This document shows positions 8,313 through 21,113 of a stretch of 64,000 bases of DNA, piece by piece (position 1 is the stretch's first letter; every line of letters starts with the position of its first letter). The notes under the pieces were generated by a model. That model saw only the letters and a program-made list of their open reading frames with translations, did not search any database and was not told the DNA's origin. The stretch is from Chryseobacterium fluminis (GTDB lineage: Bacteria; Bacteroidota; Bacteroidia; Flavobacteriales; Weeksellaceae). The position numbers and the translations under genes are program-made. The stretch spans positions 2,976,001 to 3,040,000 of the forward strand of contig NZ_CP111121.1 in assembly GCF_026314945.1 (NCBI RefSeq), read 5' to 3'.

Positions 8313-8402
8313 CTACAGAGGCCTGAAGCTTGTAATCTCCCTCCAATCCCACAGATTACGCAGATGTTTGCGTTCTGCTTAATGTGTGATCTGTGCGAAA
8401 AA

Positions 8403-10193
8403 TCATAATCTTCTGATTTCCTGACTTTCTAAATCTATTTCAAAATGATCCGCCGGATCACCGTTGGACAGTAACGAAAGAATTTTAAAGACTGATTTCA
8501 GTTGTATTATAAAAAAATCCTGCGATTGATTTTCCTCAAATAGCTTTTCCAAGGCTTGATATTGCCGTAATCTTTCTTTTGGAATATCCGTTTTCGCCAA
8601 TTCATCTGCAGACTGAAATTTATAGAGATCCAGTAATACATCATTAAAATTCCATTTGCTGAAAGCTTTTGAGTTTATTCCTCTTTCTTTTAACTGACTC
8701 CTATTCTGAATTAATAATAACAGCTCCTCTCCATTCAGTTTTTCAGCTTTTTCAATAAAATCCTTCGGCCAATCGTTAGGAATCATTCTCAAACGAACGA
8801 GCTCTTTTAAATGAAAAAGCATAAAATCACGGTATGATTTCGACTGCAGAATATCTTTATCCCAGATGATTTTGGTTTTATCTTTCTGTAAGGTCTCATA
8901 TTCTTTTTCATACAAAGGAAACAATTCATCAAAGCGGGGAACCGTATTTAAAACTTCCGTCTGCACTTCCATTTTTTGAGGCGAATGAATCGTCAGAATT
9001 TTATAGGCCGGAACATAAGCTGCCAAAGAGGGAACCTGAACATTCACCAGCGTATGATCTCCAAATACGCGAATTCCGGTGTCATTAATATGCATATGTC
9101 CGGCAAAATGAATTTGTAAACCCGCTTCCGCAAATGCTTTAGCTACCTCTTCATCAGGAACTCTTTCCAGCTGCCATTTTTTTTCGCCCAACAGCTTTTT
9201 GATCTCTCCTGTAGCACCATCATTAAAATCAATCATGGGATAGTGGGTAAATGCAATAACTGTTTTTCCGTTAATTTTGGCTTCCCGGGTTATTTTTTTC
9301 CCCCAATCGATCAGGTATTTTTTATGGGTCAAAACATGATTATAGCCTATACCTGCCCCCTGATAATTTGTCGGATCACCGGAATGTTCTTTAAAGTTTT
9401 TAGGAATGTAGGTATTGCCATCAATCGCCATCAGCCACACGCCTTTCACAGGCTCAACCACATAACTCAGATCAGGAACAGAGAATCCTTCTGAAACTTC
9501 GTACATCCTTTTGGAATAATCAGCATTTTGAACTGCTCTTGCGAAAGAATAGTATTTATATAGGATTGAATCAAAAGGAGTACTCCAATAGATATCCCCT
9601 TTTTTGGGATAGAACCCAAAATTTTTCAATTCTTCCAGGATTTCCAGATAGCCTGATTCGGCAATATCTTTGGTAATGATTTCAGGTTTTATTTTGCTAA
9701 GCTTCTCCCGGCTGTAAATTCCTACCGGGTTTCCATCTTCTCCTAAAAAATCATCTTTTCCTGCATCCTGCCGGAACGGACCTACCGGATCATGATTGCC
9801 TGTGGTGATGTAAAAATTGATTCCATATTTTTTATGATACTGATCTAAAATCCTGTGGAGCCCCCGCAGGTTGTATGCCTGTCCGTCATCTGAAAAATCA
9901 CCGGGCATGGCAACAATGGTAATTCCTTTGGCTGCAATATCATCCAGTGCTTTCAGAAAAGCAAAATAGTTTTCATTAAAAATCCTGGTCGAATGCAGCT
10001 GAGCATCCATTGTCCTCAGAATAGTCGGTTTTCCGGTTTGGGGATTGATAATCCCTTTAAAGTCATGATCCGAAAAATGTCCGTACAGATCCTGAAAATG
10101 AACATCTGAAAGAAAAGCGATCTGCACCGGCTTCTGCTGTGCCGGAAACAACACGAGACTGCTGATTAAAAATAAGAATATTCCTTTATTCAT
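8403..10193 (-). CDS. Secreted metallophosphoesterase (calcineurin-like)
   Basis: 596 residues with an N-terminal signal peptide (about 1-18, LFPAQQ). The calcineurin-like catalytic core has all its metal-binding motifs: AFLSDVHF (D-H), MPGDFSDDG (GD), TTGNHDP (GNHD), AFTHYPM (H) and FAGHMHIND (GHMH). The last 200 residues form a mostly helical region that I do not recognise. It probably hydrolyses phosphomono- or diesters outside the cytoplasm. It converges on the PI-PLC gene, so together they could release phosphate from phospholipid head groups, though no shared operon exists. There is no canonical -7 close upstream; TACTTTCG at 10206-10213 is a weak candidate. Confidence 0.88.
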   Translation of the reverse strand: MNKGIFLFLISSLVLFPAQQKPVQIAFLSDVHFQDLYGHFSDHDFKGIINPQTGKPTILRTMDAQLHSTRIFNENYFAFLKALDDIAAKGITIVAMPGDFSDDGQAYNLRGLHRILDQYHKKYGINFYITTGNHDPVGPFRQDAGKDDFLGEDGNPVGIYSREKLSKIKPEIITKDIAESGYLEILEELKNFGFYPKKGDIYWSTPFDSILYKYYSFARAVQNADYSKRMYEVSEGFSVPDLSYVVEPVKGVWLMAIDGNTYIPKNFKEHSGDPTNYQGAGIGYNHVLTHKKYLIDWGKKITREAKINGKTVIAFTHYPMIDFNDGATGEIKKLLGEKKWQLERVPDEEVAKAFAEAGLQIHFAGHMHINDTGIRVFGDHTLVNVQVPSLAAYVPAYKILTIHSPQKMEVQTEVLNTVPRFDELFPLYEKEYETLQKDKTKIIWDKDILQSKSYRDFMLFHLKELVRLRMIPNDWPKDFIEKAEKLNGEELLLLIQNRSQLKERGINSKAFSKWNFNDVLLDLYKFQSADELAKTDIPKERLRQYQALEKLFEENQSQDFFIIQLKSVFKILSLLSNGDPADHFEIDLESQEIRRL

Positions 10194-10267
10194 CCTAAAA
10201 TAAGACGAAAGTAAAGGAATATCGCGGGAATTGTTTTACGTGAATTTTAAATAATTGTGAAGGAATA

Positions 10268-11101
10268 TTATTCTTCAACGAATAATGGTTGTGCATTTTC
10301 TCCTCCATGTTGAGCAAGCATATAATCAGTTGCTTCTTTAAGAGTCTTTCCAGTTTCTGGATTGATTCCAAAACTTGTGAAAAAATCAACATCTCCGTTA
10401 CTTTTGTCATACCAAACTTTTCCCGATGCATTATCAACCGTCAATGTATCTGGTCTAGTAATACGTTGAAGATATTTAAAATCATATTCTTTCATTGGAA
10501 TAACTTCTTTTTGAGGTCCGAGATCACTGCTATCTGTTGCAATAAATCTGTCTCCATCCCAATACATATAATCTTTTTTTAAACCAGATTTTCCCGTTGA
10601 TAAAAAACCTAGGCCAATTGGAACTTGACCATCTCCTTTTTTTCCATTTGAAAACATAACTCCTCCAGTAACAAGCAATAAAACAAAAGTCATTTCTAAA
10701 ATACCTAAACCATTTTTCTTAATGAAATCGGGCAATAGAACTGTTGGTGTTACTGTAATAATTATTTGCTGAAGCTTTTCCGATATATCATTAAAGCTTA
10801 ATGTAAAAGTCTTTAGATCGTCATTTTCTATGTTTATTTTATTGCAAAAATCTTCAAAGTTATCATATCTAATATATTTACTCAAATAATCCAAAGCCAG
10901 ATCATCAATATTATAGTCTGTATTCTCTTGGACTAAGCTTTTATAATATCTTACATATGCTCTCTCTTCTCTTTCAAAACCATATCGTTCCTCAAAAAGG
11001 GAACTTAGATATGAAGCAATAGAACTTTTATTTCCTCGAGAAATCTCATTTTTTGCTTTTTCAAACACAGTTTTCACTAAAAATCTTTTCTTCTCATACA
11101 T
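10268..11101 (-). CDS. Single-pass membrane protein of unknown function, IR-controlled
   Basis: 277 residues and no recognised family. The cytoplasmic N-terminal part (1-125) is helical and ends in a pattern (TDYNIDDLALDYLSKYIRYD then NFEDFCNKI) resembling the helical N-terminal module found in assorted Bacteroidota regulatory proteins. One membrane segment lies at about 131-150, followed by a glycine-rich linker and a soluble C-terminal domain of about 110 residues with a WYDKSNGDVDFF stretch. It has no signal peptide, so it may act as a membrane-tethered sensor. Its promoter carries the same inverted repeat, at the same 21-bp distance, as two promoters of the neighbouring two-component locus, which links it to that regulon. 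Confidence 0.8.
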   Translation of the reverse strand: MYEKKRFLVKTVFEKAKNEISRGNKSSIASYLSSLFEERYGFEREERAYVRYYKSLVQENTDYNIDDLALDYLSKYIRYDNFEDFCNKINIENDDLKTFTLSFNDISEKLQQIIITVTPTVLLPDFIKKNGLGILEMTFVLLLVTGGVMFSNGKKGDGQVPIGLGFLSTGKSGLKKDYMYWDGDRFIATDSSDLGPQKEVIPMKEYDFKYLQRITRPDTLTVDNASGKVWYDKSNGDVDFFTSFGINPETGKTLKEATDYMLAQHGGENAQPLFVEE

Positions 11102-11129
11102 AAATTTTCAGGTATTAATTATTTGCTGT

Positions 11130-11137
11130 CCAAATTA
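11130..11137 (-). promoter_or_regulatory. -7 element for the gene at 10268-11101
   Basis: TAATTTGG on the minus strand, one mismatch to TAnnTTTG, exactly 21 bp from the inverted repeat and about 30 bp before the ATG. Confidence 0.5.
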
Positions 11138-11158
11138 GACAAAAATCGGACAACTAAT

Positions 11159-11174
11159 TTGCGGTTTACCGTAA
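11159..11174. promoter_or_regulatory. Inverted-repeat operator, copy 1 (TTGCG-N6-CGTAA)
   Basis: TTGCG GTTTAC CGTAA, one mismatch from the perfect form seen at 14086 and 14906. It faces the minus-strand promoter of the gene at 10268-11101 with a 21-bp gap to the -7 element. Confidence 0.65.
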
Positions 11175-11239
11175 AAATCAAATATTTACGCTCGATCTAC
11201 CTGTCCGTCCCATGTCCGTAGATTCCATTACATCTATGC

Positions 11240-11247
11240 GATATTTG
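11240..11247 (+). promoter_or_regulatory. Possible -7 element for the structured leader RNA
   Basis: GATATTTG, one mismatch to TAnnTTTG. Transcription from here would run through the interleaved stems before reaching the peptide gene at 11477. Confidence 0.35.
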
Positions 11248-11307
11248 TAAAAGAAATCAGGGACAAAAAATAAAAACAAATCAAATCCTGATTTCAAACT
11301 ACCAGAT

Positions 11308-11376
11308 AAAACGGAAGAAAACTCCGGGTTGGGAAGCAGATGTTTCTCTTCCGTTTTTGAAGGTTCTACTTCCCAA
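11308..11376 (+). ncRNA. Candidate structured leader RNA with interleaved stems
   Basis: Stem A is AAAACGGAAGA (11308-11318) with TCTTCCGTTTT (11347-11357), 11 perfect pairs followed by a T. Stem B is TTGGGAAGCAGA (11329-11340) with TCTACTTCCCAA (11365-11376), 11 of 12 pairs. The order A-B-A'-B' means the two stems are either a pseudoknot or alternatives. Stem A plus its T-run looks like an intrinsic terminator and stem B would compete with it. No known riboswitch class is recognised. Confidence 0.5.
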
Positions 11377-11476
11377 AAAATTTAAGAAGCGCTTCGAAAT
11401 TTTTTAATCGTGAATACTATCTGTGATCTGTTTCGCAGGGAAGAACACGAATGCTTTAACATTAAATTTTTTGAAA

Positions 11477-11686
11477 ATGATCCAGTTTATTTTAATGCTA
11501 TTTGGCTTAGCATTCTCACATAATAACGCAAATACAGCAGCATGTCATAACAACCAGAATCCGGTAACCGTTCAAAGCGGCCCAAGTGATCCGGGAGGAG
11601 ATACAGGAACCGGTGGCAGTGAAGACGGAGGACCCGTAGGTGGAAATTCAGGACAATTACCTCCACCATATACACCACATCCATAA
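11477..11686 (+). CDS. Small secreted Gly/Pro-rich peptide
   Basis: 69 residues from the ATG at 11477, chosen because the signal-like segment IQFILMLFGLAFS begins directly there; a GTG 18 codons upstream is less likely. The mature part is low-complexity: SGPSDPGGDTGTGGSEDGG, then PVGGNSGQLPPPYTPHP. It has one Cys (TAACHNN). No function is known; it resembles the many short export-signal peptides with Gly/Pro-rich tails found in Chryseobacterium, some of which are mislabelled signal peptidase. It is followed by a strong terminator and the histidine kinase gene, suggesting a possible signal or substrate for that sensor. Confidence 0.65.
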   Translation: MIQFILMLFGLAFSHNNANTAACHNNQNPVTVQSGPSDPGGDTGTGGSEDGGPVGGNSGQLPPPYTPHP

Positions 11687-11696
11687 TAATTAATGT

Positions 11697-11725
11697 AGGA
11701 CAGATTGCATAAATCTGTCCTTTTT
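11697..11725 (+). terminator. Terminator after the small secreted peptide
   Basis: Perfect 10-bp stem AGGACAGATT / AATCTGTCCT with a 5-base loop and a run of five T. Confidence 0.85.
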
Positions 11726-11726
11726 C

Positions 11727-11734
11727 TTACTTTG
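11727..11734 (+). promoter_or_regulatory. -7 element for the histidine kinase gene
   Basis: TTACTTTG, one mismatch to TAnnTTTG, 14 bp before the ATG at 11749, just after the preceding terminator. Confidence 0.5.
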
Positions 11735-11748
11735 CACAAAACTATTTC

Positions 11749-13377
11749 ATGAAAAGATTATTCTTTCTTATCTTAATCATATTCCTATTTTCTTGTAAAA
11801 AAGAGAATAAAATACTGCATAATAATTATAATTATCAAAAAGCCCGGGTATTCAGAGAGGCTAATGAAAAAGATTCAGCATTTTATTACTATAACCTGGC
11901 CAAAAATGATTTTTTAAAAACTTCCGATTCTCTGGGCATAGGTAATTCCTTAGTGAATATGGCTGTAATTCAGACCGGCAAGGGAGATTTTTTTGGAGGC
12001 ATCGAATCTTCTCTTGAAGCCAATAAATTTCTTAAAAAACAAAATGACAGTGCCTATAGAAGGGCGCTATCCACCAATTATAATAATATCGGGCTGGCAT
12101 ATCATTTTCTTAAGGAGTTTGAAAGATCTTCCTCAAACTATATTACTGCGTTAGAATATATTGATAATGAGGAAGACAAATATTTATGTTACAACAACAT
12201 CGGTGATTTATTGATAAGCCAGAAAAAATATGATTCTGCAAAAGCTTATTTAAATAAAGCACTTGCCACTACAGACAGCGCTACCTTCTCCAAAGTCATC
12301 AACAATCTTGCAAAAGCGAAATACCTCAAGGATAAAAATTATAATCCGCTGCCTGAGTTATTTCAAGCTTTACACATTAGAGAACGGAGTGATGACGCAC
12401 TCGGCAGAAATTCAAGCTTTGAGACCTTATCAACCTATTATCTTGATAAAGATAACACCGTTTCATTATTTTTTGCCAAGTGCATGCTGCAGTCTGCTTT
12501 GGAAAACAAACTTCCCGATGATCAGATCACGGCATTAAAAAGAATTGTAACCTTAGATTCAGATCATTATCTGCAAAACTTCAAAAAACTTGATTCGATA
12601 AACGATCACCTACAGACAACCATAAGCAGGCACAAAAACCAATTTGCCAGTGTACGATATGATGTAGAACAGAAGAATGCTTTAAATCAGAAATTAAAAG
12701 TAGATAATTTCAAGAAAAATATCGGACTTCTCTCTTTAGGACTGTTGCTGATTGTTGGGACTTTCTATTTCAAAAAAAGAAAAAAACGCCTCGAACAGGA
12801 AAAAGAACTTGAAGTTAAAAACACTCAGCTTAAGCTTTCTAAAAAAGTTCATGATGTGGTCGCTAACGGGATCTATCAGGTGATGACAAAGATTGAAAAC
12901 CAGGAAGAATTTGACCGTAATAAGGCTCTTGATGAACTGGAATTTGTATACGAAAAATCACGGGATATCTCGTATGATAAAGCCGGTGAAGAAAAAGAAT
13001 TCAGTAAAGAGATTTCGGAACTTATTGCTTCGTTTAATAATGCAACCGTTAAAACCTTTACCGCAGGGAATAATCCTGCCATCTGGGAAAATCTTTCTCC
13101 TGCTATCAAAGAAGAGGTGTATCAGATCATCCGGGAACTTATGGTGAATATGAAAAAACACAGCCACGCCAGCCATGTTGCTTTTAAATTTGAAAGAACA
13201 GATAAAGAAGTCGAAATCCAATATAAAGACAACGGTATCGGGATTTCCGGAGAACCCGTTTTTCAAAACGGATTGCGAAATACGACTTCCCGCATTGAAG
13301 CCATCAACGGAACAATTATTTTTGATACGAAAATTGAAAAAGGACTGAAAGTAAATCTTTCTTTCCCTATCTCCTAA
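11749..13377 (+). CDS. TPR-containing lipoprotein sensor histidine kinase (LuxR-partner class)
   Basis: 542 residues. The N-terminus is a lipoprotein signal (lipobox LFSC, lipidated Cys16), then a periplasmic array of tetratricopeptide-like helices (about 30-300; NNIGLAYHFLKEFERSSSNY, NNIGDLLISQKKYDSAKAYL), one membrane segment at about 325-341, a coiled coil, and a HisKA_3-like dimerisation helix with phospho-acceptor His368 in KKVHDVVANGIYQ. The HATPase domain has an N-box (IIRELMVNMKKHSHA) and DNGIGI. This architecture pairs with NarL/LuxR-type response regulators, one of which starts 10 bp downstream. A lipidated kinase with a membrane segment is a common Flavobacteriia design; the signal sensed is unknown. 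Confidence 0.92.
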   Translation: MKRLFFLILIIFLFSCKKENKILHNNYNYQKARVFREANEKDSAFYYYNLAKNDFLKTSDSLGIGNSLVNMAVIQTGKGDFFGGIESSLEANKFLKKQNDSAYRRALSTNYNNIGLAYHFLKEFERSSSNYITALEYIDNEEDKYLCYNNIGDLLISQKKYDSAKAYLNKALATTDSATFSKVINNLAKAKYLKDKNYNPLPELFQALHIRERSDDALGRNSSFETLSTYYLDKDNTVSLFFAKCMLQSALENKLPDDQITALKRIVTLDSDHYLQNFKKLDSINDHLQTTISRHKNQFASVRYDVEQKNALNQKLKVDNFKKNIGLLSLGLLLIVGTFYFKKRKKRLEQEKELEVKNTQLKLSKKVHDVVANGIYQVMTKIENQEEFDRNKALDELEFVYEKSRDISYDKAGEEKEFSKEISELIASFNNATVKTFTAGNNPAIWENLSPAIKEEVYQIIRELMVNMKKHSHASHVAFKFERTDKEVEIQYKDNGIGISGEPVFQNGLRNTTSRIEAINGTIIFDTKIEKGLKVNLSFPIS

Positions 13378-13387
13378 ACATAGAAAC

Positions 13388-14050
13388 ATGTTCAAAAAAG
13401 TTTTAATCGTCGAAGATCAGGAAATAATGAACCAGGGAATCCTGAATACAATAAAAGAATTAAACATCCCTGATTTTGACTATGTAACGTATTGTGATGA
13501 AGCTTTAAGCAGAATCAGAACATCTTTAGAAAAGAAAAATCCATACGATCTGCTTATTGCTGATCTGTCATTTGACAAAGACCATATTCCACAGAAGCTT
13601 CTTTCCGGACAAGAGCTTATCTTTGAGGTGAAAAAGGTTCAGCCTGATTTAAAAGTAGTCGTATTTTCTGTAGAAAAGAAAGCTAAGACAATTGATGATC
13701 TTTACAAGATATATCAAGTTGACGGATTTGTAAGCAAAGCAAGACGTGACGGACAAGATCTGAAAAGCACAATACGGAAAATATTTAATGGAGAGACTGT
13801 TATTCCTCAGGAAGTTCTGAATACAATGCGCCATATTTCTTCTGAGTTTGATATGTATGATATTAAATTGCTTGAGCTCCTTGCTAAAGGGAACAAACAA
13901 AGTGAAATAAGTACCTATCTGAAAGAACATCGAATGATGCCTTACGGCATCAGATCCATTGAAAAGAGATTGAATGAACTTAGGGATAGTCTCGGTGCAA
14001 AAAACAATATTGAGATGATTGTGATCTGCAAAGATATTGGCCTGATCTGA
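13388..14050 (+). CDS. Response regulator with LuxR-like DNA-binding domain, first of two
   Basis: 220 residues. The receiver domain (about 1-125) has the acidic pair E9/D10, phospho-acceptor D59 in DLLIADLSF and a conserved VFSVEKK strand with the switch Ser. The C-terminal domain (about 150-220; LLELLAKGNKQSEISTYL, then SIEKRLNELRDSLGAKN) resembles a LuxR/NarL helix-turn-helix with a few extra residues (KEHRMMP) between the helices. It lies 10 bp after the kinase, so they form a pair. Its transcript ends at a terminator (14051-14077). It is a clear paralogue of the next gene, with an identical opening MFKKVLI. Confidence 0.9.
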   Translation: MFKKVLIVEDQEIMNQGILNTIKELNIPDFDYVTYCDEALSRIRTSLEKKNPYDLLIADLSFDKDHIPQKLLSGQELIFEVKKVQPDLKVVVFSVEKKAKTIDDLYKIYQVDGFVSKARRDGQDLKSTIRKIFNGETVIPQEVLNTMRHISSEFDMYDIKLLELLAKGNKQSEISTYLKEHRMMPYGIRSIEKRLNELRDSLGAKNNIEMIVICKDIGLI

Positions 14051-14077
14051 TGACCTCTGCTGAAAAGGTCATTTTTT
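14051..14077 (+). terminator. Terminator after the first response regulator
   Basis: TGACCT / AGGTCA stem with a 9-base loop and a run of six T, starting directly after the stop codon. Confidence 0.75.
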
Positions 14078-14085
14078 CTTACGCT

Positions 14086-14101
14086 TTACGTGAAACCGTA
14101 A
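14086..14101. promoter_or_regulatory. Inverted-repeat operator, copy 2 (TTACG-N6-CGTAA)
   Basis: Perfect TTACG TGAAAC CGTAA, 21 bp before the -7 element TACTTTTG of the second response regulator gene. This places it over roughly the -35 to -50 region, where an activator would bind. Confidence 0.75.
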
Positions 14102-14122
14102 TGATGAAAAAATAAATGAATA

Positions 14123-14130
14123 TACTTTTG
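14123..14130 (+). promoter_or_regulatory. -7 element for the second response regulator
   Basis: TACTTTTG is a full match to TAnnTTTG, 37 bp before the ATG at 14168 and 21 bp after the operator. Confidence 0.65.
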
Positions 14131-14167
14131 AGGTCTTAACCTATTTTTAAAATTAAACCGTATAACC

Positions 14168-14833
14168 ATGTTCAAAAAAGTTTTAATTTCCGAAGACCAT
14201 GAAAGCATCAACATTTCCGTTCAGAAAACCCTTGAGAGTCTGAATATCTCTAAGGTAGATTATGTATACTATTGCGACGACGCTATAGGAAAAATACAGA
14301 AATCTTTACGGGAAGAACAACCATACGACTTGTTAATTACAGATCTTTACTATGAGGATGATCATCACGAACAGAATCTTAAAGACGGAAAAGAACTCAT
14401 CAGAAAAGCAAAAGAGATACAGCCTGATTTGAAAGTTATTGTATTTTCGGCTGAACATAAAACCGGCGTAATAGAAAGTCTTTTTTCAGATTATCACATT
14501 AACGGATATGTTCGTAAAGCCAGAAACGATTCAAAAGATTTGAAAAAATCTATTGCAGCTGTATACATCGGGGAAAATTATTTATCTTTTGATCTGAAGG
14601 AAGACATGAAAAAGTTCAACAGCTATGAGTTTTCTACATTTGACATCACCCTCGTATCCCTTCTTTCTAAAGGAATATTACAGAAAAATATTCCTGCTCA
14701 TCTGGAAGAAAGAAATATTAAACCCTCCAGCCTGAGCAGTGTAGAAAAAAAACTCAACAACCTGAAAGAAGATCTTCAGATCACTAGTAATGAGCAACTT
14801 GTTGCTTTTTGTAAAGATTTAGGGATTATTTAA
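14168..14833 (+). CDS. Response regulator with LuxR-like DNA-binding domain, second of two
   Basis: 221 residues, collinear with the preceding regulator: E9/D10, phospho-acceptor D59 (DLLITDLYY), an IVFSAEHK strand and a C-terminal helix-turn-helix-like region (LVSLLSKGILQKNIPAHL, then SSVEKKLNNLKEDLQ, ending CKDLGII). It almost certainly arose by tandem duplication. Unlike its sister it has its own promoter carrying the inverted-repeat operator and its own terminator, so it is probably itself a target of the regulon, as in autoregulation or a feed-forward step. It has no separate kinase nearby. Confidence 0.9.
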   Translation: MFKKVLISEDHESINISVQKTLESLNISKVDYVYYCDDAIGKIQKSLREEQPYDLLITDLYYEDDHHEQNLKDGKELIRKAKEIQPDLKVIVFSAEHKTGVIESLFSDYHINGYVRKARNDSKDLKKSIAAVYIGENYLSFDLKEDMKKFNSYEFSTFDITLVSLLSKGILQKNIPAHLEERNIKPSSLSSVEKKLNNLKEDLQITSNEQLVAFCKDLGII

Positions 14834-14860
14834 GCTTCTCCTATTAATCCTGTGATATAC

Positions 14861-14889
14861 AAACCTTTCATTTTTGAAAGGTTTTTTTT
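14861..14889 (+). terminator. Terminator after the second response regulator
   Basis: Perfect 10-bp stem AAACCTTTCA / TGAAAGGTTT with a TTTT loop and a long T-run. Confidence 0.9.
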
Positions 14890-14905
14890 ATGAAGTAATT
14901 GCAAT

Positions 14906-14921
14906 TTACGGTTTTCCGTAA
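14906..14921. promoter_or_regulatory. Inverted-repeat operator, copy 3 (TTACG-N6-CGTAA)
   Basis: Perfect TTACG GTTTTC CGTAA (also readable as TTACGG TTTT CCGTAA), 21 bp before the -7 element at 14943. It controls the small gene at 14978 and probably the long gene run that follows. Confidence 0.75.
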
Positions 14922-14942
14922 TGAATCAAGATTTAATGCTCA

Positions 14943-14950
14943 TAATTTTG
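14943..14950 (+). promoter_or_regulatory. -7 element for the 14978-21113 gene run
   Basis: TAATTTTG is a full match to TAnnTTTG, 27 bp before the ATG at 14978 and at the same distance from the operator as the promoter at 14123. Confidence 0.65.
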
Positions 14951-14977
14951 AAGTGTTAAACCAATAAAATTTTTGCA

Positions 14978-15148
14978 ATGGAAAGAAAACCATTAGGAAC
15001 AAAAGCAAAGACAGGAGAAAATTGTCCTGAATCTGGAGTTTGGAAAGTCGTTGGGAACCCTTCTACTACAGCCCCAATTTCAAAAGGAAATAGAATGCCT
15101 CCTTATGATGGAAAAGCAGTTACCTGGGAATTAATTCAGTACGCTTAA
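14978..15148 (+). CDS. 56-residue protein with a CPxSGxW motif
   Basis: Short gene from ATG 14978 to TAA 15146-15148. The protein starts MERKPLGTKAKTGENCPESG and continues VWKVVGNPSTTAP, a KGNRMPPYDGK loop and a final TWELIQYA. The spacing of the Pro-x-x-SG-aromatic motif, the later Gly-x-x-x-Pro turn and the terminal Trp recalls small YjzC-type proteins, but this is only a pattern likeness. No signal peptide. It is the first gene after the operator-bearing promoter, and a hairpin separates it from the next gene, so it may be made in excess over the rest of the operon. Confidence 0.75.
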   Translation: MERKPLGTKAKTGENCPESGVWKVVGNPSTTAPISKGNRMPPYDGKAVTWELIQYA

Positions 15149-15162
15149 CTAAGTCTTTATTT

Positions 15163-15192
15163 CCAGCGATTATTAATAAAAAATGTCGCTGG
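15163..15192 (+). terminator. Weak hairpin between the 56-residue gene and the YegP-like gene
   Basis: Seven-base-pair stem CCAGCGA / TCGCTGG with a 16-base AT loop, followed by ATTTTAATT. It may be a leaky terminator or an mRNA-processing or stability element. No independent -7 consensus was found between it and 15218, so read-through is likely. Confidence 0.45.
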
Positions 15193-15217
15193 ATTTTAAT
15201 TAAAAAAAATAATAATC

Positions 15218-15556
15218 ATGGGAAAATTCGTAATCACTCAAAGAGTTAACAGAGAGTATCAGTTCAATCTGAAAGCCGGAAACGGTGAAATTATTCTAAC
15301 CAGCGAAGGATATGTTCAGAAAGCATCCTGCCAGAAAGGAATTGAGTCCGTAAAAGTTAATTCTCAGGATCTTTCAAGATACGACAGAAGGCTTGCAAAA
15401 AATGGAAAAGACTATTTCGTGTTAAAAGCAAGAAATGGTGAAATTATCGGAAACAGCCAAATGTACAGCACAAAATCCGGAATGGAAAATGGTATCGCTT
15501 CCGTAAAATCAAACGCTCCGACAGCAGAAATCGTTGATGAAACTTTAAAAAACTAA
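15218..15556 (+). CDS. YegP-like DUF1508 protein (two tandem repeats)
   Basis: 112 residues made of two copies of the roughly 50-residue DUF1508 unit: FNLKAGNGEIILTSEGYVQK then KGIESVK in the first, and FVLKARNGEIIGNSQMYSTK then NGIASVK in the second. The family (E. coli YegP) is widespread and of unknown biochemical role, often induced under stress. No signal peptide, so it is cytoplasmic. It leads a run of nine tightly spaced genes and starts 5 bp before the next coding region. Confidence 0.9.
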   Translation: MGKFVITQRVNREYQFNLKAGNGEIILTSEGYVQKASCQKGIESVKVNSQDLSRYDRRLAKNGKDYFVLKARNGEIIGNSQMYSTKSGMENGIASVKSNAPTAEIVDETLKN

Positions 15557-15561
15557 AAACT

Positions 15562-16632
15562 ATGGATCTTAAAATTAAACTTGAGCAACTGCATCAGAAA
15601 GTAATTGGTCTTAAAGACAAGATAGGAACAGAAGAAGCGACAAAAAACGCCTTTGTAATGCCTTTCATACAAATCCTTGGTTATGATATTTTCAATCCTA
15701 CTGAAGTTGTTCCTGAACACGTCTGTGATATCGGAACAAAAAAAGGAGAAAAAGTGGATTATTTGATCAAAAATAATGATGAACCCATCTTCATCATTGA
15801 ATGTAAGCACTGGAAAGAAAGCGCTGATGCTCATAATTCGCAGCTTCACAGATATTATCATGTTTCAAAAACAAGATTCGGAGTTCTCACCAATGGGATT
15901 GTGTACAACTTTTATACGGATTTGGAAAAGCCTAATATTATGGATGAAAAGCCGTTTTTTACCATCAATATTGAAGATCTTAAAGACAGCTCCATTAAAA
16001 TTCTGGAAAGCTTTACCAAAAAAGATTATAATCTGGAAAGTATCCTCGATTCTGCAGAAGCATTGAAATACATCAAAGCCATCAGAAAGGAATTCGAAAA
16101 AGAAATCGAAAACCCATCTGACGAACTGGTAAAACTTCTGGTGAACCGCTTCTTTGAAAAGCCCTTAACAGCCAACAGAATGGTTTCCTTCAAGGAATAT
16201 GCTAAAAAAGCATTGACTACTTCTATTAATGAGTCGATCAGCTTCCGGTTAAAATCCGCTTTGAGCATCAATGAACAGATAGAAAAAAACGAAGACGATG
16301 TGAAATCATCACAGCCCATCGATCAAAATAACGATTCTAAAATTGTAACTACGGAGGAAGAGCTCGAAGGTTTTCAAATTGTAAAAGCTATTCTAAGGGA
16401 GAAAATTCCATCTTCAAGAATTGCTTACAGAGATACTCTTTCCTATTTCGGGGTGTTGTTGGATGATAACAACAGAAAGCCACTTTGCAGATTGCATTTT
16501 AATACAACGAATAAATATCTGGAGACTTTTCACAACGGAAAAGAAGCAGGAGAAAAGATGTTATTAAATACACTGGATGAGATCTCCAATTATAGAAATC
16601 AGCTTCATCTGACGCTGGAAAATTATGTATAA
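15562..16632 (+). CDS. HsdR-N-type PD-(D/E)XK nuclease-like protein, stand-alone
   Basis: 356 residues. The N-terminal 150 match the type I restriction R-subunit N-terminal (HSDR_N) nuclease fold: the lead Glu in TEEATKNAFVMPFIQ, then GYDIFNP, and the active-site strand KVDYLI followed by IFIIECKHW giving D-x(n)-E-C-K, then QLHRYYHV and GVLTNGI. The C-terminal domain (about 275-356; GFQIVKAILREKIPSSRIAY, FGVLLDDNNRKPLCRL) is a separate small fold found after such nucleases. No HsdM, HsdS or helicase motor is present, so it is not a classical restriction system. It sits inside an envelope/stress-like operon. A DNA-directed role is inferred from fold only. Confidence 0.82.
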   Translation: MDLKIKLEQLHQKVIGLKDKIGTEEATKNAFVMPFIQILGYDIFNPTEVVPEHVCDIGTKKGEKVDYLIKNNDEPIFIIECKHWKESADAHNSQLHRYYHVSKTRFGVLTNGIVYNFYTDLEKPNIMDEKPFFTINIEDLKDSSIKILESFTKKDYNLESILDSAEALKYIKAIRKEFEKEIENPSDELVKLLVNRFFEKPLTANRMVSFKEYAKKALTTSINESISFRLKSALSINEQIEKNEDDVKSSQPIDQNNDSKIVTTEEELEGFQIVKAILREKIPSSRIAYRDTLSYFGVLLDDNNRKPLCRLHFNTTNKYLETFHNGKEAGEKMLLNTLDEISNYRNQLHLTLENYV

Positions 16633-16643
16633 AATTAATAGCC

Positions 16644-17168
16644 ATGAAAACTTTAATATCTTTCATAATACTGATATTCAGCTTATTTCTTTTAAATTCT
16701 TGTCTGAAAGCCAATGACAATGTAGGACACGGCGGAAGATGTACGGGTTCGGCCTATTGTTCCGCTTGTTCCAACTGTTCAGGATGTGCCCACTGCAGCA
16801 GTGGTGGAACTTGTGGTGTTTGTCGTGGTGGATCTTACAGAAAAAGCTCTTCTTCGGGAAGCTCTTCGAAAAGCAAGTCTAAAAAACATAAATCCCCGGA
16901 TTCTTACAGATCTTCAAAGCCCCATACCAGTAAACCTCCAAAAGTATTTATTGAAAAGGTAAATATCAATCTAAATTCTAACAACAGATACATTGCAGGC
17001 ATTGCAATAACAAATGTTTATGAAAAACCTACCTTTCGATCTAAAGTAATAACAAAAGTACCTAAAGATGCCAAACTGTTAAAGCTTTCAAAGGAAGGAT
17101 CATGGTATAAAGTACAGGTCAAACCAAATGGAAAGACAGGATATGTCTTCAATAAAGATATAAAATAA
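16644..17168 (+). CDS. Cys-rich lipoprotein with C-terminal SH3b domain
   Basis: 174 residues. A lipoprotein signal (lipobox LLNSC, Cys near 20) is followed by a compact cluster with repeated Cys-x-x-Cys spacing (RCTGSAYCSACSNCSGCAHC then CGVC), a Ser/Lys-rich linker, and a bacterial SH3 domain (about 115-174; IAITNVYEKPTFRSKVITKV, GSWYKVQV, TGYVF). The SH3 part should bind peptidoglycan or protein at the envelope; the Cys cluster could bind metal or form disulfides. It lies 11 bp after the nuclease-like gene and 17 bp before the PH-SHOCT gene. Confidence 0.85.
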   Translation: MKTLISFIILIFSLFLLNSCLKANDNVGHGGRCTGSAYCSACSNCSGCAHCSSGGTCGVCRGGSYRKSSSSGSSSKSKSKKHKSPDSYRSSKPHTSKPPKVFIEKVNINLNSNNRYIAGIAITNVYEKPTFRSKVITKVPKDAKLLKLSKEGSWYKVQVKPNGKTGYVFNKDIK

Positions 17169-17185
17169 TCAAAAAACAAAATAAT

Positions 17186-17812
17186 ATGAACTTAAAGAAA
17201 TTTTTAAATGAAGAACAGGATCCTCAAGCTGTTCAAAAGCTTTTAGGAAGAATTAACAGCCTTCTTACCTCAAAAGAAGCTGTAGAATATATAGCTGTTC
17301 AGAAAAAACCTGTAATAAATTTATCCCCTGATTGTATTGCCCTTACCAATAGAAGAATTATTTTCTGCAGGCCAAAAAACTTCGGCTTATCTATGGATTT
17401 TCAGGATTACAGTTGGGTGGATATTGCTGATTGTCACATCAAAGAAGGAATTGTTGGCTCTACCTTTATTATGAGAACTACAAAAAACTTTACAAATATG
17501 ATGGATTATCTTCCTAAAAACCAAGCCAGAAAGCTGTATCAGTTTGCACAGGAAGTGGAAGAAAAAATGCGGGGGCTCAGACGAGAAAAAAATCTTGAAA
17601 CATTGAGAGCCTCTGCAGGGGGCGTTACTGTGAATAATGCTACCCCTATTATCACACAACCTCAACAATTTCAGGAAGAAAAAAAGCCATTGTTGATAGA
17701 GAATGAAGATCCTTTTGCTTTATTGCAGAAGTTAAAAGACTTAAAAGAGAACGGAATCATTTCTCCTGAAGAGTTTGAAACAAAAAAGAACGAAGTTTTA
17801 TCAAGAGTTTAA
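17186..17812 (+). CDS. Bacterial PH-domain protein with C-terminal SHOCT
   Basis: 208 residues with no membrane segment. The N-terminal half carries a bacterial PH-like fold (about 35-130: IALTNRRIIFCRPKNFG, then DFQDYSWVDIADCHIKEGIV). A flexible Gln-rich linker leads to a SHOCT motif at the extreme C-terminus (DPFALLQKLKDLKENGIISP then EEFETKKNEVL), a short helical module thought to aid oligomerisation. It is a likely cytoplasmic scaffold at the membrane with the neighbouring TM2 protein, 3 bp downstream; PH, SHOCT and TM2 domains often occur together. Confidence 0.88.
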   Translation: MNLKKFLNEEQDPQAVQKLLGRINSLLTSKEAVEYIAVQKKPVINLSPDCIALTNRRIIFCRPKNFGLSMDFQDYSWVDIADCHIKEGIVGSTFIMRTTKNFTNMMDYLPKNQARKLYQFAQEVEEKMRGLRREKNLETLRASAGGVTVNNATPIITQPQQFQEEKKPLLIENEDPFALLQKLKDLKENGIISPEEFETKKNEVLSRV

Positions 17813-17815
17813 ATT

Positions 17816-18031
17816 ATGAAATCAAAATCTACCGCCGCATTACTTGCTTTTTTCTTGGGAGGATTAGGCATTCACAGGTTTTACCTAGGTCAAAATATTA
17901 TGGGAATATTGTATTTGGTATTTTGCTGGACTTTCATTCCCGCATTAATTGCATTGTTTGATTTCTTTGTACTTATTTTTATGTCTGAAAGCCGTTTTAA
18001 TTATAAATATAATCTCAAAACAGGATTTTAA
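17816..18031 (+). CDS. TM2-domain membrane protein
   Basis: 71 residues that are essentially one TM2 domain: KSKSTAALLAFFLGGLGIHR then FYLG, a turn with Gly-Gly-x-x-x-x-x-Arg-Phe-Tyr, and a second membrane helix (LYLVFCWTFIPALIALFDFF). The family is of unknown molecular role. It follows the PH-SHOCT gene by 3 bp and precedes the next membrane protein by 9 bp, so translation is probably coupled. Confidence 0.92.
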   Translation: MKSKSTAALLAFFLGGLGIHRFYLGQNIMGILYLVFCWTFIPALIALFDFFVLIFMSESRFNYKYNLKTGF

Positions 18032-18040
18032 GCAAACATT

Positions 18041-18442
18041 ATGAAACCATTTCTCACCTTCTGTGCGTTATGTTGTTTCGCTGGTATTTTCAAACTTCCT
18101 ATAGAATATTATACTTTTCTTAGAATTATTATTTCCATTGGAGCTTTATTGGTTTTATACAATACGCTGAGCTCTAAACAACATTATTTCAGTATATTAT
18201 TTCTAATCATTCTCATTCTTTTCAATCCCGTTTTTCCTTTTTATTTATATAGGAAAAGCATTTGGATCCCGATTGATATCATCACAGGAATTTTATTTCT
18301 GCTGATCAACTTCGCAGAAAGAAAAGAACAAAAAAAGGAAGAAGAAGTTCCTGAAGAAACCACGAAACAATCTGCTCCCATCCAACAAAGAACTGTTTCA
18401 AGAGACAGAATCATTAATCCTAAAAAGCCAAAAGAAGAATAA
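18041..18442 (+). CDS. Small integral membrane protein, DUF6804-like
   Basis: 133 residues. It has about four hydrophobic segments in the first 90 residues (FLTFCALCCFAGIFKLP, LRIIISIGALLVLYN, FSILFLIILILFNPVFPFYL, IWIPIDIITGILFLLINFA) and a charged cytoplasmic tail (KEQKKEEEVPEE). The FNPVFPFYLY..SIWIPIDI pattern reminds me of the DUF6804 family, which has no known function; this assignment is from memory and uncertain. It is in tight tandem with its neighbours (5 bp to the next start). Confidence 0.75.
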   Translation: MKPFLTFCALCCFAGIFKLPIEYYTFLRIIISIGALLVLYNTLSSKQHYFSILFLIILILFNPVFPFYLYRKSIWIPIDIITGILFLLINFAERKEQKKEEEVPEETTKQSAPIQQRTVSRDRIINPKKPKEE

Positions 18443-18447
18443 CCATT

Positions 18448-18855
18448 ATGGAGAACAATCAAATAACTGAAAATCTCAAAGCACATTTTTTACGATTGTA
18501 TCAAATGGCTATCTGTGATGATGATTTCAGTGCACTAGAATTAAAAATGCTCTACAAATGTGCAGAAGAAAGGGGAATTCCATCCAAAAATTTAGATGAA
18601 ATCCTTTTAAATCCAATCAATTTAAAATCATTGGTACCACAGACTATTGAGGAGAAAGTAGATTATTTATATGATCTCACCGTAATGATCTGGGCAGATG
18701 GAATTGTTTCTCCAAACGAATATATTGCTATGCAAAAATACGTTCTGATGTTTGGTTTTGTAGAAGAAAATGCACCTTCCATTGTAGATTATCTTATTGA
18801 AGCCGTGAAAATCGGAAAGAATAAAAGCGAAATTTTATATGAATTAAAAAACTAA
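18448..18855 (+). CDS. TerB-like helical protein
   Basis: 135 residues, all-helical, no signal or membrane segment. It shows the two pseudo-repeat acidic motifs typical of the TerB fold (LYQMAICDDDFSALELKML near the N-terminus and VMIWADGIVSPNEYIAM in the middle), which in TerB bind metal near the membrane. TerB-like proteins occur in tellurite/phage/stress-associated Ter systems together with VWA proteins; a VWA-like lipoprotein is two genes downstream here. No other ter genes (terC, terD, terZ) are present in the window. Confidence 0.8.
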   Translation: MENNQITENLKAHFLRLYQMAICDDDFSALELKMLYKCAEERGIPSKNLDEILLNPINLKSLVPQTIEEKVDYLYDLTVMIWADGIVSPNEYIAMQKYVLMFGFVEENAPSIVDYLIEAVKIGKNKSEILYELKN

Positions 18856-18861
18856 CTTATC

Positions 18862-20202
18862 ATGGATACCACCAGTATAAAAAATTTATTTAAACTCAAA
18901 TCCGTTCCGATAGAGTCCAAACAGGAACATCTTCCTAAAACCGATATCATTCCAAGCGATGAATCTCTCGAAGAAACCCGAAAAAGAACCTATCATGAAT
19001 CAGGTTACAGGGACAGCTCACGAACCAACGGAAACCACTCTACTCTATCCATTTGCCTGGATGCCGTTTATTCGAAATTTCAGAACGAAGAAAAGGAAAT
19101 GGTCGAAAAACAGAAAAATCTGAAAGAATCCTACGTCAACGAACAAAAAAACAGAGAAACTGAAATTAAGGCGCTGACAGTATCACAGGAAACAAAAGAA
19201 GAGCAGCTAAAAAACAAAAATATAGAAATTGAAAATCATCAGCATACAATTGAAAATTTAAAAGCTGAAATCCTTGATCTACCCAGAAACCCGGAAAAGC
19301 ACAATATAAAAGCAACAAAAGGAGCTTCTGCAAAATTCTGGATCGGGCTTTTCCTTTTGATTCCCATAACTTTATATTTAGGAACATTTTATATCTCAAC
19401 TTCTTATTCAGCTTTTTTCAAAAGTTTTGATGCAAAAAGTACAATTATCCAAAGTGTTTTAGATGCACAGGCTTTCAGTAAAGCGTGGAACGAAGGAGTA
19501 ATTGAAGGAGCTTTTGTTACCTTGATCCCGTTTGTATTTCTCGGGTTGGGATATTTGATTCATATGTTTTGGGAGAATAAAACAAGAGCCAATTATATCA
19601 AGCTGGGATTATTATTTATCGTAACATTTATTTTCGACTGCATTCTAGCCTACGAAATTGAGTCAAAATTGTATGAATTAAACAAAACTTTTGAATCACC
19701 ACCATTTGATATTAAAATTGCTTTTACCAAAATTCAGTTTTGGGGAATTATTTTCGCTGGATTCATTGTATACATTATTTGGGGACTGGTTTTCGACTTT
19801 GTAATGAAAGAACACCGTGAAAAAGATAAGATCAAAAATGAACAGGAAATCAGACAGAAGAGGATTGAATTCTTTCAGGAAAAGATCAATATTCTGAAAA
19901 AGGAAATTGAAGAAATCCTGGCCAATATCGGAAGTACAAAAGAATCAATTATCAAAACACGAGGAAGAATAGAAGAACTTCAGAATATTATTGACGGTGT
20001 AATCATACCTACTAAAGATTACAAATTATATGCGTCAGAGTATGTTCAAGGTTGGATCACTTTTATCGGTGAAAAAATAGCAGTATCAAGAACGGAAAAG
20101 CAAACGATGATTGATGACTGTATTGCAACCTACAATGTCAATCTGGAAACGGTAGGTGCTAATTCCGACAACCAAAACTTAGTGTATTTATCATCCTTGT
20201 AA
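18862..20202 (+). CDS. Four-helix membrane protein with flanking coiled coils
   Basis: 446 residues of no family that I can name. Layout: a charged N-terminus, a long coiled coil (about 75-145), two membrane segments (about 155-180 and 215-238), two more (about 245-265 and 290-315), a second coiled coil (about 320-375) and a soluble C-terminal tail. The arrangement suggests a membrane scaffold or mechanosensitive-like complex whose coiled coils bind other operon products. It starts 6 bp after the TerB-like gene and ends 11 bp before the VWA-like gene. No catalytic motif is visible. Confidence 0.82.
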   Translation: MDTTSIKNLFKLKSVPIESKQEHLPKTDIIPSDESLEETRKRTYHESGYRDSSRTNGNHSTLSICLDAVYSKFQNEEKEMVEKQKNLKESYVNEQKNRETEIKALTVSQETKEEQLKNKNIEIENHQHTIENLKAEILDLPRNPEKHNIKATKGASAKFWIGLFLLIPITLYLGTFYISTSYSAFFKSFDAKSTIIQSVLDAQAFSKAWNEGVIEGAFVTLIPFVFLGLGYLIHMFWENKTRANYIKLGLLFIVTFIFDCILAYEIESKLYELNKTFESPPFDIKIAFTKIQFWGIIFAGFIVYIIWGLVFDFVMKEHREKDKIKNEQEIRQKRIEFFQEKINILKKEIEEILANIGSTKESIIKTRGRIEELQNIIDGVIIPTKDYKLYASEYVQGWITFIGEKIAVSRTEKQTMIDDCIATYNVNLETVGANSDNQNLVYLSSL

Positions 20203-20213
20203 AATTACAAATT

Positions 20214-21113
20214 ATGAAAAAATTACTTTATTTATTGATGATCATTTCGTTGGTTTCCTGTTGCAAAGGCAAAGATGACGGAACAGTCAAAGGAAATACG
20301 GATTCTATTGTTGTTGACTCAAACAATATCAATGTCAGCATTTTAATTGATTTATCAGACAGAATTGATACAGTAGCTAATCCTAATCCCACAATGGAAT
20401 ATTATCAAAGGGACACGGAATATATTAAGGCCATTGAAAAAGGATTTTTAAACCATGTCAAATCAAAAAAAATCATCACATATGATGATCAGATGCAGGT
20501 TTTCTTCAACCCGGAGCCTTCAGACCCGAAAATGAATGAACTTACAAAAGAGCTGAAAGTTTCCTTTAATAAGGATATTCCAAAAAGTTATTTTGATTCT
20601 GTTGACAAAAAATATTTGGAATTACCTTTACAAATCTATAAATCAGCCATTAAAGATAGAGAATACATTGGCTCCGATATTTGGGAGTTTTTCAAAAACA
20701 AAGTGAAAGATTATTGCATTAAAGATGATCGCAGAAACATTCTTTTCATTTTAACCGACGGCTATATGTATCATGAAAATACTAAGTTTGATGAAAAGAA
20801 GGAAAAATCATACAAAACTTCCTATTTAACAACCAAGCTTATAAAAGCTAATAACCTGACAACATCCGGTTTTAAAGATACCATTGAAAAAAATGGCTTT
20901 GGCTTTGTAAAAGCAAATGAAAACCTGAGTAATCTCGAAGTTATTGTTTTAGGAATCAATCCCGAAAAAGGAAATCCTTTTGAAGAAGCTGTTATTAAAG
21001 AATACTGGGAAAATTGGTTTAAAGAAATGAAAATCAAAAAGTACCAGATCAGATCTGCCGACCTCCCTTCCAATCTGGAACCCATTATCTTAAAAGCTAT
21101 TTCAGGGAAATAA
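20214..21113 (+). CDS. VWA-like lipoprotein
   Basis: 299 residues with a lipoprotein signal (lipobox LVSC at about residues 13-16). The mature part looks like a von Willebrand factor A fold: the first strand ISILIDLSDRID carries D-x-S, a later strand reads RRNILFILTDGYM with the TDG motif, and a third LEVIVLGINPEKGN. The usual DxSxS MIDAS is DLSDR here, so metal binding may be altered. It is the last gene of the run that starts at 14978 and is followed by a bidirectional terminator. Pairing with a TerB-like protein recalls Ter-type stress modules. Confidence 0.8.
   Translation: MKKLLYLLMIISLVSCCKGKDDGTVKGNTDSIVVDSNNINVSILIDLSDRIDTVANPNPTMEYYQRDTEYIKAIEKGFLNHVKSKKIITYDDQMQVFFNPEPSDPKMNELTKELKVSFNKDIPKSYFDSVDKKYLELPLQIYKSAIKDREYIGSDIWEFFKNKVKDYCIKDDRRNILFILTDGYMYHENTKFDEKKEKSYKTSYLTTKLIKANNLTTSGFKDTIEKNGFGFVKANENLSNLEVIVLGINPEKGNPFEEAVIKEYWENWFKEMKIKKYQIRSADLPSNLEPIILKAISGK

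Follow-up and report, generated by a model that had tools for sequence, protein, structure and literature searches.

Introduction

Peptide-receptor pherotypes are familiar from Gram-positive bacteria. The ComQXPA systems of Bacillus are reported to form polymorphic communication groups (PMC4408185). According to another report (PMC4008528), ComX varies most towards its C-terminus, and ComP is strongly variable in its N-terminal domain and conserved in its cytoplasmic domain. The locus described here belongs to Chryseobacterium fluminis and lies in a window of 64,000 nucleotides, the whole stretch of DNA that was analysed (RefSeq assembly GCF_026314945.1, contig NZ_CP111121.1, positions 2,976,001 to 3,040,000 of the forward strand; coordinates below count from its first letter). 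It joins a small peptide gene (PEP), a histidine kinase (HK) and two response regulators (RR1, RR2) to a run of ten genes that ends in a triad encoding a TerB-like protein, SCAF (a four-helix membrane protein with coiled coils) and a VWA protein. The outer half of the sensor and the neighbouring small peptide occur in many matched versions, which are swapped together between species, as is also the case for peptide-pheromone receptors elsewhere among bacteria.

The likeness to ComQXPA has two parts. A PEP-like open reading frame (ORF), defined by a single rule, sits directly upstream of the histidine kinase and regulator. It is present in 79 of 86 HK loci, a count that takes in Pedobacter forms and lipobox-bearing Flavobacterium forms, and in 92 of another 100 loci from the same genus. 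The peptide C-terminus and the sensor also show matched polymorphism from which the kinase half stands apart, with linkage as a confounder. Unlike ComQXPA, the locus is found in Gram-negative Bacteroidota, its TPR sensor follows a predicted lipobox instead of forming a series of transmembrane helices, and the neighbouring gene g277 is nearly uncoupled from the variable block. No ComQ isoprenyl transferase was seen in the locus, where g277 has no Pfam match above cut-off and the interval between g277 and HK holds only the PEP ORF and opposite-strand ORFs. By analogy, then, the locus would work like a pherotype two-component system minus the ComQ feature, with signalling that we infer. Its upstream genes are as follows.

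10268 to 11101, minus strand: g277, a divergent, hypervariable 277-residue protein with a single hydrophobic segment and no Pfam family above cut-off
11477 to 11686, plus strand: PEP, a 69-residue small ORF, predicted secreted or membrane-anchored, with a conserved N-terminus and a variable Gly/Pro tail
11749 to 13377, plus strand: HK, histidine kinase with predicted lipobox, TPR sensor (about residues 20 to 320, predicted periplasmic), transmembrane helix and HATPase (Pfam TPR_12 8e-9, HATPase_c 8.9e-7)
13388 to 14050, plus strand: RR1, response regulator (PF00072 and DUF5932)
14168 to 14833, plus strand: RR2, response regulator (PF00072)

A polymorphic block spanning peptide and sensor

PEP lies between g277 and HK and was absent from the first description of this DNA, a sequence-only reading. 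Its codons 2 to 14 are under constraint, with a pooled pN/pS of 0.33 over 40 loci. Comparison of 40 Chryseobacterium loci at the same site, with between 24 and 40 sequences for each gene, separated variable genes, with mean pairwise identities of 0.44 for g277 (34 loci), 0.49 for HK and 0.58 for PEP, from steady ones, namely HSDR (0.91, 36 loci), EngB (0.90), TerB-like (0.84) and SCAF (0.81). HK varies mainly in its sensor half, where identity is 0.41 against 0.65 in the kinase half.

Mantel tests compared the PEP tail (last 18 residues) and the PEP N-terminus (first 20 residues) with the two halves of HK. The permutations ignore relatedness, and the kinase half serves as the internal control. 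The first set held 47 of 49 candidate loci, with L131 and L135 dropped because HK was short or PEP missing and L125, L127, L143 and L144 excluded beforehand (L numbers are our own locus labels). Tail and sensor correlated at r 0.642, a value reached by 0 of 2000 permutations, and at 0.52 and 0.20 (p 0.028) within the two tail classes, which this analysis defined as K/P by whether the tail ends in KK or RK or not. The controls gave -0.07 for tail against kinase and -0.08 for PEP N-terminus against sensor. A replication plan fixed before the test began with 100 new loci, of which 81 kinases were parsed and 75 had a PEP; 22 near-identical cases were dropped and 53 were used. There, tail against sensor gave r 0.651, tail against kinase -0.02 and PEP N-terminus against sensor 0.00. 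A relaxed parse (n = 68) gave 0.577, 0.01 and -0.10, respectively.

The sensor also predicts the tail class. With each locus left out in turn, the nearest sensor named the class in 44 of 47 cases, compared with 25 for the nearest kinase and 31 for the majority class; the corresponding counts were 49, 36 and 40 of 53 in the new loci, and 60, 43 and 46 of 68 under the relaxed parse. Two loci outside the set, L237 and L238, have nearest sensors 58% and 55% identical to their own (next best 39% and 50%), and the accompanying tails are near-identical. Along HK, association with PEP class is strong in windows within residues 1 to 324 (z 4.7 to 16.8), falls to z 1.7 at 325 to 360 and is none in the kinase. 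From the response regulators to the VWA gene there is likewise none (z -1.2 to 0.5). EngB shows a small association (z 2.9, p 0.009, n = 38), so some background structure exists. At residue level, with z values uncorrected for relatedness or linkage, 329 of the 3262 pairs between tail and sensor are coupled above z 8; none of the 344 tail-transmembrane pairs and none of the 1506 tail-kinase pairs are. Mean coupling is highest at tail position -5 (numbered from PP). Sensor residue N185 has the highest single value, and T226 and I85 of the sensor also rank among the most strongly coupled positions.

As a candidate strong third partner, g277 was rejected. Its Mantel correlation with the sensor is 0.07 (p 0.12, n = 34), and over 112 loci it correlates at 0.07 to 0.11 with the tail and 0.08 to 0.10 with the sensor; a weak link remains, with z 5.0 against PEP class (n = 44). 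It is hypervariable like the sensor yet nearly uncoupled from it, and in the pair L117/L129 it alone differs, at 43% identity against at least 89% in the other genes.

Mosaic pairs locate the block. Two records titled C. lathyri are 97% alike in the response regulator and 90% in the kinase but only 38% in the sensor, with similar PEP fronts and different tails. Between them, a 200-column DNA window ending inside the PEP front is 98% identical and is flanked by diverged g277 on one side and the diverged PEP end and sensor on the other. Conversely, two Epilithonimonas share an identical PEP and 96% similar sensors on kinases 44% and SCAF proteins 69% alike, and in the pair L122/L126 the entire two-component system differs while the cargo is near-identical. 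The PEP tail and the TPR sensor of HK are one polymorphic allele block, with ends inside PEP and near the HK membrane helix. The block is found on different backbones, and its variation is independent of that in the kinase half, the regulator and the cargo.

The two-component system and its cargo

Downstream, all ten ORFs of the originally described run were located at 14978 to 21113, on the plus strand and in the order first given. The tight spacing claimed from the YegP-like gene onward (3 to 17 bp) was measured as 5, 11, 17, 3, 9, 5, 6 and 11 bp; wider gaps separate YjzC from YegP (69 bp), RR2 from YjzC (144 bp) and RR1 from RR2 (117 bp).

14978 to 15148, plus strand: YjzC-like 56-residue protein (PF14168, E 0.015, 16 of 25 bits, below cut-off)
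15218 to 15556, plus strand: YegP-like protein with two DUF1508 stretches (Pfam 2.4e-44)
15562 to 16632, plus strand: HSDR, HsdR-N PD-(D/E)XK nuclease-like protein (PF04313, 1.8e-14)
16644 to 17168, plus strand: SH3_3 protein with a lipobox by eye (Pfam SH3_3 4.7e-10)
17186 to 17812, plus strand: bPH_3 and SHOCT protein (Pfam 6.4e-20 and 1e-8)
17816 to 18031, plus strand: TM2 membrane protein (Pfam TM2 4.8e-20)
18041 to 18442, plus strand: DUF6804 membrane protein (Pfam DUF6804 7.5e-22)
18448 to 18855, plus strand: TerB-like protein (PF05099, E 0.057, below cut-off)
18862 to 20202, plus strand: SCAF, coiled coil, four predicted transmembrane helices, coiled coil (alignment and model)
20214 to 21113, plus strand: VWA protein with a lipobox by eye (AlphaFold2 model and Foldseek)

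The first description had the two-component system dedicated to this run, which did not hold. Among 148 same-genus genomes, the HK profile matches 141 at E 1e-60 but the VWA protein only 69 at E 1e-40; in seven of the 69, VWA matches only weakly, at the strength of the paralogue in the C. fluminis genome. Eight other same-genus genomes have VWA matches of that paralogue-like strength, and in seven it is their sole VWA match. HK sites were read in 20 hand-picked genomes without a VWA match, 14 of the sites adjoining GNAT/EngB, and other cargo or none was found. HSDR, accompanied by small genes, follows the two-component system in ten and YegP in seven; a different module takes this place in five and a related 573-residue protein in one; others have small genes only, and in two there is nothing before GNAT/EngB. 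The alternative module comprises a 567-residue protein, an AAA ATPase and small proteins, as read from the sequences in L371, L377 and L380 and from ORF lengths only in the other two. In L371 (5328 to 9782), the cargo consists of 159-, 567- and 171-residue proteins plus an AAA ATPase (PF00004, 5e-31) that matches IetA models over its AAA domain. L237 keeps PEP, HK and the response regulator beside GNAT/EngB with the cargo absent, and L238 keeps HSDR and SH3 with the triad absent. Within the C. fluminis genome, HK has only three weak paralogue matches, so there is no second cassette.

The TerB-SCAF-VWA triad

Adjacent SCAF and VWA genes were collected from 120 loci; counting loci as one where their SCAF identity reached 99.5% left 107 distinct ones. 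A TerB-like gene adjoins the pair in 98 of these, and of the nine without it three are at the edge of a contig. The neighbourhood comparison proposed beforehand as a refuting test thus found a set that travels as a unit, and the adjacency exceeds chance. HK lies upstream in 90 of the 107 loci and 89 of the 98 triad loci, DUF6804 is near the pair in 82 of 107, and g277 is on the strand opposite the operon in 86 of 107. A survey of 120 family genomes found VWA in 26 and SCAF in 25, with the two genes adjacent in those 25, the window included (tblastn; one cut by a contig end). Scanning GTDB contigs with a VWA alignment gave 231 relatives, the best 80 of which carry the names Chryseobacterium, Epilithonimonas, Elizabethkingia, Halpernia, Pedobacter, Olivibacter, Flavobacterium, Galbibacter, Cellulophaga and two others that are less well resolved. 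Across the phylum, 20 of 395 genomes have a VWA match, and in the five most distant (L222 to L226) SCAF and VWA are still adjacent, without a TerB-like match.

Sixteen proteins (8403 to 21113) were scanned with curated Pfam cut-offs. Within the ten-gene run, DUF1508, HSDR_N, SH3_3, bPH_3 with SHOCT, TM2 and DUF6804 exceeded them; TerB and YjzC fell below. Two of the three small membrane proteins originally counted are clear (TM2 and DUF6804), and the third is unclear. The TerB-like protein scores 14.1 against a cut-off of 24.4 bits and carries two D-x6-E motifs (D24/E31 and D84/E91), invariant in 33 alignment rows. The best PDB chains for its profile are 2h5n (E 0.026), which we take to be TerB-like, and 2ou3 (E 0.067), whose record is named tellurite resistance protein.

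SCAF, whose Pfam matches all fall below cut-off and whose D259 is invariant in 41 rows, was modelled with helices compatible with four membrane spans and long coiled coils (pLDDT 79.7, pTM 0.50), in agreement with the scaffold of coiled coils and four helices proposed earlier. Foldseek returned nothing at E 0.001 for this model, and its weaker matches were coiled-coil chains, hence no fold is proposed. The VWA protein has zero Pfam matches. Its AlphaFold2 model (mean pLDDT 88) drew a Foldseek list in which SpaC, Rpn10, BRCA1-A and TFIIH chains, presumably VWA domains, are mixed with FMN azoreductases at low TM-scores; the model supports a probable VWA identity for this protein. The canonical metal site of VWA domains is the DxSxS MIDAS motif, which this protein lacks: its first motif is altered to DxSxR, and D46, S48, R50, T181 and D182 are invariant in 42 rows.

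Distant SCAF and VWA pairs were also found near other genes. On an IMG/VR viral contig (L193, 824 to 8747), a DpdF-like DEAD helicase, a coiled-coil protein, SCAF, a 127-residue ORF and VWA stand in a row. In L225 (8015 to 12991), the pair lies next to Cas_NE0113 and Card1 CARF-endonuclease genes, and in L222 it is near a DprA gene. The helicase and CARF neighbourhoods recall systems listed in PADLOC, as does the PLD domain of the C. fluminis SCAF paralogue, which resembles DrmC (6.6e-8).

Nuclease genes beside the triad

A nuclease-family gene is found near the triad in 80 of 98 loci: HSDR alone in 64, HSDR with SNase in eight, SNase alone in five and EEP with HSDR in three. HSDR of the window scores 54.5 bits for PF04313 against a cut-off of 25.1, and D66, E80 and K82 of the catalytic D...ExK are kept in eight of eight aligned sequences. 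By this match and these residues it is a predicted member of the PD-(D/E)XK nuclease family. The SNase (PF00565) and EEP (Exo_endo_phos, PF03372) genes of relatives were confirmed with Pfam. A fourth family appears in the C. fluminis genome itself, where a SCAF paralogue carries an N-terminal PLDc_2 domain (PF13091). That paralogue, followed by a VWA protein, lies at 8370 to 11420 of L078 (about 1637370 to 1640420 of G000:C2).

Linkage of the nuclease-like gene to the rest, also named beforehand as a refuting test, was found in 18 of 19 sampled family genomes with HSDR as well as triad genes. The earlier idea of a membrane-spanning complex with a DNA-cutting arm fits the three nuclease families that recur beside the triad and the PLD fusion to SCAF; both the complex and its cutting activity are predictions.

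If the nucleases and membrane proteins imported extracellular DNA as a nutrient under signal control, secreted enzymes would fit, and the SNase and EEP genes near the triad in relatives do have signal-peptide-like starts by eye. The commonest nuclease, however, is HSDR (75 of 98 triad loci), for which no such start is seen by eye, and DNA scavenging appears very unlikely to us.

Comparison with tellurite and metal stress systems

Ter-dependent stress systems can likewise combine a TerB-like protein, a VWA domain and a nuclease in one neighbourhood, and the TerB-like and VWA proteins here do share one operon. A Ter-type tellurite or metal stress system is nevertheless highly improbable. The TerB match is below cut-off and TerB finds no family match in the C. 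fluminis genome at E 0.001. As first described, no TerC or TerD family gene is present: Pfam gave no such match among the 16 scanned proteins, the genome as a whole not having been searched for them. Membership was accordingly rejected, and the resemblance noted earlier stops at a sub-threshold TerB match and a VWA protein. The VWA protein also differs in that it falls into no Pfam family and its MIDAS motif is altered, and SCAF belongs to no family.

Proposed function and rival explanations

We infer the function of the locus, weighing signal-controlled conflict or defence against envelope stress. Our preferred reading, which we offer tentatively, is a sensor-plus-cargo unit in which the PEP tail-sensor alleles act as recognition groups and the kinase switches a conflict or anti-phage cargo of membrane and nuclease proteins. 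The PEP tail would be a ligand of the TPR sensor, or an inhibitor bound to it, and the alleles would thereby define recognition groups like ComX/ComP pherotypes. Once engaged, HK would switch one or both regulators and the cargo would be induced. This cargo may form an inner-membrane assembly: SCAF would span the membrane with its coiled coils in the cytosol, the TerB-like protein would be bound inside, and the VWA and SH3 lipoproteins would lie outside. Such an assembly could position nucleases against incoming DNA, with HSDR inside and, in relatives, either an SNase or EEP enzyme that is secreted or the PLD domain carried by SCAF itself as a fusion. Its role would be inter-bacterial or anti-phage conflict under signal control.

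Three observations favour conflict or defence: the SCAF and VWA pair stays the same while the nuclease folds beside it differ, distant pairs lie near the DpdF-like helicase, CARF/Card1 and DprA genes, and the sensor is diversified. A functional pairing of tail and sensor is favoured by where the block stops, within PEP and close to the HK membrane helix, and by the match to the ComX/ComP reports. A bolder version is doubtful: pherotype self-recognition in Bacteroidota, in which a lipid-anchored TPR kinase reads the Gly/Pro-rich tail of a small secreted peptide, balancing selection maintains dozens of trans-species alleles, and the envelope cargo under the switch is interchangeable, in this case a new TerB-SCAF-VWA membrane machine that deploys several nuclease folds against incoming DNA.

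Several observations weigh against the preferred reading, beginning with linkage. The 60 nucleotides after the PEP stop correlate with the sensor at r 0.633, and the tail at 0.628 (n = 100). Intergenic DNA covaries equally with the sensor, so the block passes on as a single piece, and a correlation of this kind does not by itself prove contact between tail and sensor. Block linkage explains much of the tail-sensor correlation, residue coupling included. With intergenic DNA held constant, the tail retains 0.445, and intergenic DNA likewise retains about 0.45 with the tail held constant; for the 60 nucleotides before PEP, r is 0.09. By the same rule that defines PEP, 8 of 100 further loci lack it. 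The analysis identified no pathway by which PEP would be matured or exported, and PEP may stay membrane-anchored. A recognised nuclease is absent from 18 of 98 triad loci; among the 120 family genomes, HSDR has matches in 33, and SCAF is missing from 14 of those (in two of which the HSDR match is weak and partial); HSDR also follows the two-component system in 10 of the 20 genomes lacking VWA. For mobile carriage, VWA had no plasmid match and SCAF no match in phage records, and one distant viral contig carries VWA. Finally, none of the ten proteins of the run matched a defence system listed in PADLOC at E 1e-3, the weak matches being TerB-like to PDC-S48 (0.0021) and HSDR to Cas4 (0.0075).

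The linkage result lends itself to another explanation, in which an external attacker, a phage or toxin that uses or mimics the sensor block, diversifies it in an arms race of the immune type, and tail and sensor covary only through exchange as one DNA piece. The equal covariation of intergenic DNA fits this account, as do the near absence of covariation in the equally hypervariable g277 and the conflict-like look of the cargo. The ends of the block in the C. lathyri mosaic pair, inside PEP and near the membrane helix, speak against it, and so, weakly, does the greater similarity of tails than of intergenic DNA in all six sensor-identity bins, a comparison given little weight because protein and DNA scales differ. 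Overall, we regard this explanation as unlikely.

The main rival is envelope-integrity sensing, in which PEP would be a membrane or lipoprotein probe of its own cell for the TPR kinase, and the cargo would repair or guard the envelope and clear periplasmic DNA without any cell-to-cell signal. Such a probe would work like RcsF or NlpE. In Rcs- and Cpx-type stress sensing, too, a small envelope protein feeds a two-component system governing envelope genes, which differs from this locus with its exchanged polymorphic alleles and TPR sensor. Lipobox-type ORFs occupy the PEP position in several Flavobacteriaceae loci, C16 in the predicted lipobox of HK is invariant in 15 of 15 sequences, the SH3, VWA, TM2, PH-SHOCT and DUF6804 proteins are of envelope type, and all the pieces could act within a single cell. 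By itself, however, this explanation predicts neither alleles shared across species nor swaps limited to the PEP tail and sensor, and we consider it somewhat unlikely.

If the preferred reading is true, Bacteroidota too have peptide-receptor pherotypes, built on a receptor of another architecture, and these govern a membrane-nuclease module that occurs across several families of the phylum and has had no name so far. Neither the triad nor a Bacteroidota TPR-kinase peptide cassette was recognisable in any paper among the literature matches listed. The two C. lathyri records, whose backbones are nearly the same and whose alleles differ, make allele specificity directly testable. The SCAF and VWA pair, with three neighbouring nuclease families and a fusion to a fourth, offers a search handle for related systems.

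Further observations at related loci

In L053 (11881 to 12287, TerB-like) and L058 (7709 to 8330, PH-SHOCT), each gene was matched in two frames. In L065 (10491 to 10998) and many other loci, a small protein with the motif CTYNG...GGCYY...YVDRSYCSGCN, negative in Pfam at E 0.01, replaces the SH3, PH-SHOCT and TM2 genes. Several loci encode a 422-residue protein (L061, 8711 to 9979) that matches PDC-S48 of PADLOC (1e-5) over the part of the model also matched by the TerB-like protein, which suggests that it carries a TerB-like domain.

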